From Micromonospora avicenniae (GTDB lineage: Bacteria; Actinomycetota; Actinomycetes; Mycobacteriales; Micromonosporaceae), in NCBI RefSeq assembly GCF_900156065.1, contig NZ_FTNF01000009.1:1-64000 (forward strand): 64,000 bases of DNA. The letters run 5' to 3'. A program made the translations under genes and the position numbers. Numbering within the stretch: the stretch's first letter is position 1; each line of letters starts with the position of its first letter. The notes under the pieces were generated by a model. The model was not told the DNA's origin. It did no database searches and saw only the letters and a list, made by a program, of their open reading frames with translations. This document shows positions 1,984 to 49,509 of this stretch, piece after piece.

Positions 1984-2174
1984 CGGCCGAGCATGCCAGA
2001 TACGTCAGCCATCGACGGGAAGCGGGCAACCCGGCGAGCACGTGGCCGGCGGATGCGGTCATGCCCCGATGCGCGTTTCCCGGCGCCGCTCGCCCTGCAC
2101 CAGGTGCTCCACCCGCGTCCCCGTCTCCGTCAGGACCCCGTCCCGCGCCGCAGCCACCCCTAACCTCTCGCGCA

Positions 2175-2228
2175 CTTTCACGGAAAGAGTGGCTGTCCGG
2201 CCCCGGACAGCCACTCTTTCCGTGAAAG
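2175..2228. terminator. perfect 26-bp inverted repeat after galK
   Basis: The arms at 2175-2200 and 2203-2228 are perfectly complementary with a 2-nt spacer. The gene galK on the minus strand ends at 2257, so this is placed as its transcription terminator. No U-tract follows. The outer stem segment TTCACGGAAAGAG recurs in the hairpin downstream of upp (46872-46929), so this is also one copy of a dispersed stem motif. Confidence 0.8.
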
Positions 2229-2256
2229 AGGCGTATGGGGGTGGGGGAGGGAGGGG

Positions 2257-3414
2257 TTAGTCGAGGCGGATGGCGCCGGGGGCGGGGAGGACTGTCACAT
2301 TGCCGGGGGCGGTGAAACCCCGCTCGGCGTACGCGGCGGTGACGGCGGCGGCGACCGAGTCGGCGGCCGCTGCCTCGACGAGGGCGAGGACGCAGCCGCC
2401 GAAGCCACCGCCGGTCATCCGTGCGCCGAGTGCGCCGGCGGCGAGCGCCGCCTCGACCGCGGTGTCGATCTCCGGCACGGTGATCTCGAAGTCGTCGCGC
2501 ATCGAGACGTGCGAGGCGGTGAGCAACGGGCCGATCTCGCGGACCCGGCCGGCGCGCAGCAGCGCCACCGTGTCGAGTACCCGCTGGTCCTCGGTGACCA
2601 CGTGCCGGACCCGGCGGCGGGTCTCCGGGTCGTCGAGGCGGGCGAGCGCGGCGTCGAGCTGGTCGATGGTGACGTCGCGCAGCGCGGGCACACCGAGCAG
2701 CTCGGCACCGGCCTCACAGGACTTGCGCCGGGCCGCGTACTCGCCGTCGGCGTGCCGGTGCGGGGCGTGGCTGTCGATGACCAGCATGGCGAGCCCGGCG
2801 GCTCGCAGGTCGAACGGGATGTGTTCGACGCCCTCGGTGCGGCAGTCGAGGAAGAGCGCGTGCCCGTCGCGGCAGCGGATGGAGGCCGACTGGTCCATGA
2901 TGCCGGTCGGCGCCCCGACGTAGTGGTTCTCGGCGCGTTGCGCGAGCCGGGGCTGCCGGTCGGCGGGCAGGTCGAGGTCGCCAAGGTCGACCAGTGCGGT
3001 CAGCACCGCCGCCTCCAGCGCGGCCGACGAGGAGAGCCCGGCGCCGAGTGGCACGTCGGACGCGATGGCGAGGCGGGCGCCGGGCACGTCGTGACCCGCG
3101 TCGCGCAGGGCCCAGACGACCCCGGCGACGTACGCTCCCCAGCCGGTGACCCGGCCGGGCTCGTCGACCTCGTCGGCGCCGAAGCTGATCGTCTCGCCGG
3201 ACAGCTCCGACCAGACCGTCCAGCGCGCGCCTTCCTGCCGGTCGGCCGCCGCAACCGTACGCAGCGGCAGCGCGAAGGGGAGCACGAAGCCGTCGTTGTA
3301 GTCGGTGTGCTCGCCGATCAGGTTGACCCGGCCGGGTGCCGCCCAGTGACCTGCGGGTGGCTCACCGAACTCCTGACGGAAGCCGGCGGTGGCGCGGTCG
3401 GCGACGTCGGTCAT
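2257..3414 (-). CDS. galK: galactokinase
   Basis: 385 residues; phosphorylates alpha-D-galactose to galactose-1-phosphate in the Leloir pathway. GHMP-kinase features are in order: the galactose-binding signature GRVNLIGEHTDYNDG near residue 28, the glycine-rich ATP loop PLGAGLSSSAALE near 118, and the C-terminal ARMTGGGFGGC motif near 335. ATG at 3414 overlaps the galE stop by 4 nt (ATGA), so the two are translationally coupled. Length is normal for the family. No galT is present in this window, although the uridylyltransferase step is needed between the two enzymes. Confidence 0.95.
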   Translation of the reverse strand: MTDVADRATAGFRQEFGEPPAGHWAAPGRVNLIGEHTDYNDGFVLPFALPLRTVAAADRQEGARWTVWSELSGETISFGADEVDEPGRVTGWGAYVAGVVWALRDAGHDVPGARLAIASDVPLGAGLSSSAALEAAVLTALVDLGDLDLPADRQPRLAQRAENHYVGAPTGIMDQSASIRCRDGHALFLDCRTEGVEHIPFDLRAAGLAMLVIDSHAPHRHADGEYAARRKSCEAGAELLGVPALRDVTIDQLDAALARLDDPETRRRVRHVVTEDQRVLDTVALLRAGRVREIGPLLTASHVSMRDDFEITVPEIDTAVEAALAAGALGARMTGGGFGGCVLALVEAAAADSVAAAVTAAYAERGFTAPGNVTVLPAPGAIRLD

Positions 3415-46224: not shown

Positions 46225-46857
46225 GTGGATGTACACGTCATTGACCACCCGCTGGCGCAGTCCCGGCTGACCGCCATGCGGGACGAGCGCACCGACTCCG
46301 CCTCCTTCCGGGCGGCGCTGCACGAACTCACCACCATGCTGGTGTACGAGGCGGCGCGCTCCTTCCCGGTCGAGCGGTACGACATCCGGACGCCGGTGAC
46401 CGGCACCGAGGGAACCCGGCTGGCGAACCCGCCGCTGCTGGTGCCGGTGCTGCGGGCCGGCCTAGGCATGGCCGACGCCGCGCTGGGCCTGCTGCCCGAG
46501 TCCTCGATGGGCTTCGTCGGGCTGGCCCGGGACGAGAAGACGTTCGAGCCGCGCGCGTACATGGAGTCGCTGCCCCGCGACCTGACCGGCCTGCCGGTGC
46601 TGGTGCTGGATCCCATGCTCGCGACCGGCGGGTCGCTGGAGCACTGCTGCCGCCTGCTGGCCGACCGCGGCTGCACCGACATCACCGTGCTCTGCGTGCT
46701 CGCCGCGCCGGCCGGCATCGAACGGCTGCAACGCTCCGGTCTGCCGATGCGACTGGTCACCGCCTCGATCGACGAGGGTCTCAACGACCGCAAGTTCATC
46801 ATTCCGGGCCTCGGCGACGCCGGCGACCGCCAGTTCGGCGGCATGCCCCGCTTCTGA
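46225..46857 (+). CDS. upp: uracil phosphoribosyltransferase
   Basis: 210 residues; converts uracil and PRPP to UMP. The PRPP loop [17 protein letters not shown] near residue 130, [13 protein letters not shown] near 72 and the C-terminal uracil-binding [10 protein letters not shown] are present. GTG 46225 agrees with the family N-terminus. Followed by a 26-bp-stem hairpin at 46872-46929. Confidence 0.95.
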
Positions 46858-46871
46858 CCCGCTCCGCCCCA

Positions 46872-46929
46872 CTCGTTCACGGAAAGAGGGCTCATTCCTC
46901 GCAGAATGGGCCCTCTTTCCGTGAACGAG
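46872..46929 (+). terminator. upp terminator, TTCACGGAAAGAG stem family
   Basis: Arms 46872-46897 and 46904-46929 pair over 26 bp with one U.G (plus strand); 6-nt loop. It starts 14 nt after the upp stop. The outer stem shares TTCACGGAAAGAG with the hairpin at 2175-2228. Confidence 0.8.
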
Positions 46930-47075: not shown

Positions 47076-47615
47076 TTGAAACCGGTGAGCGAGCGGGGCG
47101 AGGACTGGTTCACCAAGCTCTACGCCGCGCGCTACCCGGACATCGTCAGATATGGCATGCGTCGGCTTCCCGATGCCGACTCGGCGGCCGAACTCGCCCA
47201 GGACGTGTTCGTCGTCGTCTGGCGGCGGCGCGGCGAGGTGCCTGAGCGCGCCCTTCCGTGGCTCTACGCCGTCGCGCGTCACGTCGTGGCGAACCGGTGG
47301 CGGTCCCGGCGCGGCGGTCCGAGCCTGCTCACGCTCGCCGAGGCGGACCACGTGCCGGCACGAATCGTCGAGCCCGACGCCGTCGCGCCGGTGCTCGACC
47401 TGCACCGGGCGCTGCGCAGGCTGCCCGAATTCGACCAGGAGATCCTCCGGCTGGTCGGCTGGGAGGACCTGAGCGTCGCCGATGCCGCCGTCGCCCTGGG
47501 GTGCACCCGGTCCGCGGCCGCCGTGCGGCTCCATCGGGCCCGGCGCCGACTGCGCTCCGCCCTCACCACCCCCGCCCCCGCTCGAGGCGTCAGGCCGGCG
47601 TCCACCCATGTCTGA
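47076..47615 (+). CDS. ECF-type RNA polymerase sigma factor
   Basis: 179 residues from TTG 47076, which has AGGAG exactly 7 nt upstream; GTG 47040 lacks a site. Region 2: DWFTKLYAARYPDIVRYGMR and ELAQDVFVVVWRRRGEVPER. Region 4: LRRLPEFDQEILRLVGWEDL then AVALGCTRSAAAVRLHRARR. Anchored promoter specificity is unknown. The next gene, encoding a single-pass membrane protein, follows after 10 nt and could be its anti-sigma factor or target. Confidence 0.9.
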   Translation: MKPVSERGEDWFTKLYAARYPDIVRYGMRRLPDADSAAELAQDVFVVVWRRRGEVPERALPWLYAVARHVVANRWRSRRGGPSLLTLAEADHVPARIVEPDAVAPVLDLHRALRRLPEFDQEILRLVGWEDLSVADAAVALGCTRSAAAVRLHRARRRLRSALTTPAPARGVRPASTHV

Positions 47616-49449: not shown

Positions 49450-49509
49450 GTTGATCAAGAGCTTCGCGTCAGGTTCTCCGCGTTTCCTGACGCAAAGCTC
49501 TTGATCAAC
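49450..49509 (-). terminator. 24-bp-stem hairpin between GPP34 and mutase genes
   Basis: Arms 49450-49473 and 49486-49509 (outer part GTTGATCAAGAGCTT) pair with one mismatch that is G.U on the minus-strand RNA; 12-nt loop. It lies 16 nt beyond the phospho-sugar mutase stop and 5 nt after the GPP34 stop, serving both converging genes. Confidence 0.75.

Follow-up and report, generated by a model that had tools for sequence, protein, structure and literature searches.

A dispersed family of REPIN-like palindromes, probable bidirectional terminators, at gene ends in Micromonospora

Intrinsic (factor-independent) terminators include a U-tract-free kind proposed for actinobacteria, and in Neisseria, Haemophilus and the Pasteurellaceae inverted pairs of uptake sequences double as terminators, the uptake words themselves being mostly solitary and very numerous. 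REPs are described as short palindromes found many times in intergenic DNA, chiefly past gene ends and where neighbouring ORFs converge or point the same way (PMC3733652), and REPINs as two conserved inverted ends around a variable centre that fold into a hairpin (PMC3116915). Several families are described per genome, with hairpin or three-hairpin folding (PMC3733652, PMC3116915). The word Actinobacteria is absent from the main text of PMC3733652, and a search of the mostly open-access literature, on repeats in Micromonospora and on bidirectional terminators in actinobacteria, found no description of such an element.

Two hairpins in the window, that is, the whole 64-kb stretch of DNA analysed here, follow galK and upp, and they belong to one dispersed family, called family A, of REP/REPIN-like palindromes that probably (we put the chance near 0.7) have spread between gene ends and act as bidirectional terminators without a U-tract. 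As in the published accounts of REPs, family A consists of many dispersed intergenic palindromes, mostly after genes, and as in those of REPINs its inverted arms are conserved and its tips variable (mean pairwise identity among 30 copies of the same genome 0.93 for arms, 0.59 for tips and 0.41 for flanks). It differs from the REP/REPIN plan given there in lacking the unpaired GTAG/CGTC end tag and in forming a nearly continuous long palindrome of fixed 50-nt length. With intrinsic terminators it shares a strong hairpin tens of nucleotides past the stop codon, also between convergent genes, but the U-tract is missing and the stem sequence is common to unrelated genes and species. With paired uptake sequences it shares a word set in inverted pairs after genes, whereas solitary words are scarce, copies are far fewer and the exact word is absent from most congeners. 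Thus the kind is known, dispersed palindromic repeats at gene ends; what is unusual is that family A seems to supply and replace bidirectional terminators, and to do so in lineage-specific versions.

The hairpins after galK and upp

The galK hairpin (Table 1) carries the arms TTCACGGAAAGAG and CTCTTTCCGTGAA around a variable tip, its core lying about 30 nt from the galK stop codon; the upp hairpin, which has the variant GAGGGC adjoining the arm, has its core 18 nt from the stop. An initial annotation had described the first as a perfect 26-bp stem and the second as a 26-bp stem with one U.G, and so they are: positions 2175-2200 and 2203-2228 are complementary at 26/26 with a loop of 2 nt, and 46872-46897 and 46904-46929 at 25/26 with a loop of 6 nt, the exception being T/G. 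The annotation also placed a shared 13 bp outermost in both stems; the common 13-mer stands, its outermost position does not, since the galK stem extends 2 bp and the upp stem 4 bp beyond it. The (T)GGCT read after the 13-mer involves no inserted T: the two sequences have T and G in register there, and further differences come after. The two hairpins align gap-free, both spanning 50 nt from TTC to GAA. Within the window TTCACGGAAAGAG occurs at 2177-2189 (+), 2214-2226 (-), 46876-46888 (+) and 46913-46925 (-), and allowing up to two mismatches adds no further match in the 64 kb, for which shuffles expect 0.39.

Table 1. Features at the two gene ends of the window that carry family A palindromes.
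Feature	Position	Strand	Detail
Family A palindrome after galK	2173..2230 (2175-2228 arms)	.	50-nt core 2177-2226
galK hairpin with outer, partly paired extension	2160..2243	.	RNA fold
galK, galactokinase	2257..3414	-	Pfam GalKase_gal_bdg, GHMP_kinases_N/C
Family A palindrome after upp	46872..46929	.	50-nt core 46876-46925
upp, uracil phosphoribosyltransferase	46225..46857	+	Pfam UPRTase

Covariance model R1 scores the galK palindrome at 82.4 bits (+) and 81.9 bits (-) and the upp palindrome at 73.4 and 72.5 bits, each of these copies being itself included in the model's alignment. Both fold strongly as RNA on either strand, with z between -7.6 and -10.8: the extended galK hairpin reaches -63.8 kcal/mol (z -10.8) on the plus and -56.2 kcal/mol (z -9.8) on the minus strand, and the upp palindrome has z -8.7 (+) and -7.6 (-). 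Rfam gave no match in the window at curated thresholds, and below threshold only generic hairpin matches, mostly to miRNA models.

On the side of the galK element away from galK, 695-2174 holds no confident gene call, an unusually long stretch in which ORFs 856-1608 and 1669-2163 are without Pfam match. The galK copy is counted as convergent below, an assignment that is not established, since the gene facing galK is a weak call of 101 aa at a distance of 1482 nt; several relatives seemingly have a convergent gene close after galK. The upp element is followed by an ECF-type sigma factor gene at 47085-47615 (+; Pfam Sigma70_r2, Sigma70_r4_2). Around many copies, for example at 2140-2260, C-rich runs (CCACCCC) stand to the left after the stop and G-rich runs (GGGGTGGGG) to the right; because such runs flank other hairpin families too, they seem to be a property of these gene ends.

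Copies in the genome and across the genus

In the 6.82-Mb genome to which the window belongs (63 contigs), TTCACGGAAAGAG with at most one mismatch occurs at 61 places and its reversed control at 1, an excess that bears out the earlier view that two independent terminators would not be expected to share such a stem. In 23 of 24 inverted pairs the arms start exactly 37 nt apart, which makes a 50-nt element, and in the remaining pair 38 nt apart. After two of the 36 loci taken (L041 and L065) were dropped as single arms without a hairpin, 34 elements remained, and the covariance model at E <=0.001 finds at least 78 matches, about 39 places if each was matched on both strands; all covariance-model counts given here are lower bounds, as 150 candidates were scored per genome. 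Family A therefore comprises some 34 to 39 copies in this genome, fixed-length palindromes scattered just after genes. With genes called by a simple codon-usage caller trained on the window, 33 of the 34 elements are found no further than 100 nt past a called stop (median 30 nt), compared with 29.7% of random intergenic 50-mers; 21 stand between convergent genes, one (L054) between divergent genes and 12 between tandem genes, each of the 12 within 100 nt past the stop of the upstream gene. The genome-wide count relative to stop codons that the initial annotation had proposed thus yields further copies, almost all just 3' of stop codons. Because there are so many and nearly all are so placed, neither coincidence nor a single duplication explains them, and this reading, which the presence of family A in many species also contradicts, can be given a negligible chance. 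No two of these copies are nearly identical outside the element, the closest flanks agreeing at 0.61, and the comparison thus caught no recent event of copying. In G011, two family A copies (C32:530756-530805 and C33:58948-58997) share the same 50 nt in opposite orientations, which may reflect recent copying or a repeat in the assembly.

Family A is confined to Micromonospora, one unrelated look-alike aside. Public genomes scanned for exact matches to TTCACGGAAAG-N28-CTTTCCGTGAA yielded 94 stretches, and 79 of the 80 listed were Micromonospora; a stretch on an 'uncultured Planctomyces' contig (L073) was set aside as an unrelated look-alike, with a GC of 0.556, a different interior and no resemblance to the Micromonospora loci compared. 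Of 160 species genomes, 45 carry the exact 13-mer, at 1 to 94 places each (controls 0 or 1); strict paired elements were seen in 6 of 61 genomes, and at least one covariance-model match in all 30 chosen genomes (range 1 to 135, as lower bounds). For a sister word, GGAAGTAGTGGC, controls count about equally high, so its genus-wide count is uninformative.

That an inverted pair of a shared word lies after genes is also what would be expected if family A were paired DNA-uptake sequences doubling as terminators, as in Neisseria and the Pasteurellaceae. This model was rejected because the word is mostly paired (48 of its 61 places) and amounts to a few dozen elements in 6.8 Mb, which makes it a very improbable account. 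Somewhat less improbable, though still quite doubtful, is the reading that family A is a genuine REPIN and that a RAYT (Y1 tyrosine transposase) moves it. Family A has the plan described for such elements, with conserved inverted ends, a variable centre, a location after genes and the same hairpin or three-hairpin folding (PMC3733652, PMC3116915), but the GTAG/CGTC end tag is absent: near 32 elements CGTC occurs once on the left and three times on the right, GACG once, CTAC once and GTAG never. The transposase profile (Y1_Tnp, PF01797) matches in 13 of 30 genomes and in E. coli, taken as a control, but was not found in five (G065, G169, G135, G129 and G100) of the nine genomes, several of them draft assemblies, with at least 31 exact arm copies; the sole match in the genome of the window lies on contig C38, which has no motif place. 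Because the tag is absent and the transposase was not found in these five high-copy genomes, membership of the REPINs is not claimed for family A.

Stem variation, inherited sites and arm dialects

The element is a 50-nt palindrome, or 58-64 nt with its outer pairs, whose stem tips vary by compensatory substitution and whose arms mostly hold. Changes on both sides of a pair are seen at 19 of 30 pairs in 32 copies from the window's genome and at 22 of 27 pairs in 57 copies that include orthologues; in either set, 0 of 500 shuffles reach the observed counts of changed pairs, changed cells or covariation score, and sliding the pairing partners lowers every covariation measure. Outside the core, a C four bases away is invariant in 57/57 copies and pairs with G in 54, the three positions between being variable. 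No U-tract follows the hairpin in 30 elements (mean 1.8 T in 10 nt, largest 4), and in 11 tandem copies wobble pairs outnumber A/C mismatches by 10 to 6, a margin too slight to argue for or against a role as RNA.

Many copies are evidently inherited in place, since 21 pairs of an element from the window's genome with one from another species, found with a pattern fixing the outer 11 bp, match on both flanks and cover 16 of the 34 elements. Gene ends were also compared independently of the motif, at upp and galK in 30 loci each, taken by protein similarity from 61 genomes (27 for galK, three loci cut by contig ends being left out), and at pepA and pstB in 30 chosen genomes, these two genes being named provisionally, from a reading of their sequences. 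By one automatic criterion family A occupies 17/30 pepA, 5/30 pstB, 4/30 upp and 7/27 galK sites, one of the seven galK elements being of the sister type. By eye, other hairpins fill the same slots: the GATCAAGAGG family after galK in nine species, and elsewhere GGGGCCCC...AACGC, GATCTTGCAGTT...GCAAGATC or plain GC-rich hairpins.

After pepA, seven species have a GC-rich hairpin only (CGGGGCG...CGCCCCG), four (G118, G116, G076 and G090) have this hairpin and then family A after it, and others, including the genome of the window, have family A without the GC-rich hairpin. The simplest order starts with the GC-rich hairpin alone, followed by the arrival of family A and, in some lines, by loss of the older hairpin; the comparison showed neither a target duplication, as would mark a MITE, nor an exact insertion border. 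In a tree from the pepA and pstB coding sequences, most of the genomes with family A at pepA group in one large clade and some fall outside it. At the pepA ends of G076, G122, G129 and G116 (L288, L290, L307 and L310, respectively), an upstream extension like CCAAGATCCGCGCA precedes the arm and recalls AAGATCGTGCTCG before the galK copy of G090; these extensions perhaps represent a longer ancestral element. The upp copies of four species (among them L228, L229 and the window copy at 46872-46929) have GAGGGC beside the arm in place of GAGTGGC, which marks these copies as inherited there, and a near relative, G016, has no element at its upp end.

Arms differ between lineages. The model finds 10 elements in 800 kb of G118, none further than 53 nt from a stop. 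Four of them have TTCAGAGAAAG as arm sequence, mostly with corresponding changes in the opposite arm, and a related form is seen in the galK copy of G118; this genome yields at least 126 model matches versus 16 exact arms. In 1.25 Mb of the window's genome, both arms are exactly TTCACGGAAAGAG in 7 of 11 copies. To a large extent, then, arm sequence goes with the lineage. Over 33 rows from sites chosen independently of the motif, the Spearman correlation with exact copy number is 0.71 for arm identity, and tip identity shows none (0.08), a comparison in which genomes of another dialect score low by construction, since copies were counted with the exact consensus 13-mer, so that dialects and decay are inseparable.

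Conserved arms might alternatively be binding sites of a DNA- or RNA-binding protein, on which separate terminators converged under selection and without copying. At orthologous ends tips diverge while arms are often exact, several arm positions are invariant in 57/57 copies, and each arm holds, by sequence reading, a small dyad, CTTTC-ACG-GAAAG, all of which such a protein could account for. Against it stand the G118 dialect, the fixed 50-nt length, the paucity of isolated half-sites (13 of the 61 motif places lack a partner, mostly where one arm of the element is degraded) and the likeness of tips at non-orthologous ends well above that of flanks, as copying predicts. Convergence on a protein site is accordingly unlikely, if the least unlikely of the alternatives to copying dispersal; the latter is the most likely origin in view of the shared arms, related tips, dialects and addition beside an older terminator.

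Proposed spread between gene ends, and other hairpin families

The terminator label fits the position and structure of family A, and we infer that transcription termination or 3'-end protection is its most likely role from that position, the two-way geometry, the hairpin strength and the maintained pairing. Transcribed from either side, an element would give a hairpin of at least 20 bp at which transcription of one or two genes would end, or which would fix and protect the 3' end of their RNA. Copies would spread from site to site within a lineage, as REP/REPIN repeats do, landing beside older terminators or replacing them; after landing, the tip would drift under selection for pairing and the arms would remain as in the source copies of that lineage. 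Such movement between gene ends would explain why unrelated terminators share a sequence.

A broader proposal, held tentatively and at somewhat less than even odds, is that these are selfish-repeat terminators: in each lineage a few long-palindrome families (family A, GTTGATCAAGAG and others) would invade gene ends, displace inherited terminators and be kept alike by copying of a non-Y1 kind, so that terminators in the genus would evolve by dispersal and dialects and not gene by gene. Were this so, gene ends in a large antibiotic-producing genus would be colonised by terminator-replacing repeats, terminator evolution could be traced site by site over about 160 sequenced species, and natural, strong two-way terminator candidates would be at hand for actinobacterial engineering. 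It would also raise the question of which agent copies REPIN-like elements in genomes where a RAYT was looked for and not found.

A census of 1.25 Mb places strong hairpins mainly between convergent genes, at 1.53 per kb, as against 0.39 and 0.35 per kb in tandem gaps, 0.09 in divergent gaps and 0.003 within genes. Because k-mer clustering merged unrelated hairpins (43 in one cluster), families were counted by motif, and the 88 census hairpins divide into 8 of family A, 14 with GATCA(A/T)GAGG, 5 with TGATACC, 1 of the sister GGAAGTAGTGGC type and 60 others. Between convergent genes of the window, at 49450-49509, a hairpin GTTGATCAAGAG.../...CTCTTGATCAAC represents another repeated gene-end family, that of the 14 census hairpins, which by eye recurs at the galK end of nine other species. 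A third family, TGATACC(T/C)NAGNGGCAT...ATGCC...GGTATCA, has AT-rich loops and the five census copies; it was seen in L183, L171 and other stretches of the window's genome, on contig C23 at 435301-435346, 215454-215497 and 512175-512212.
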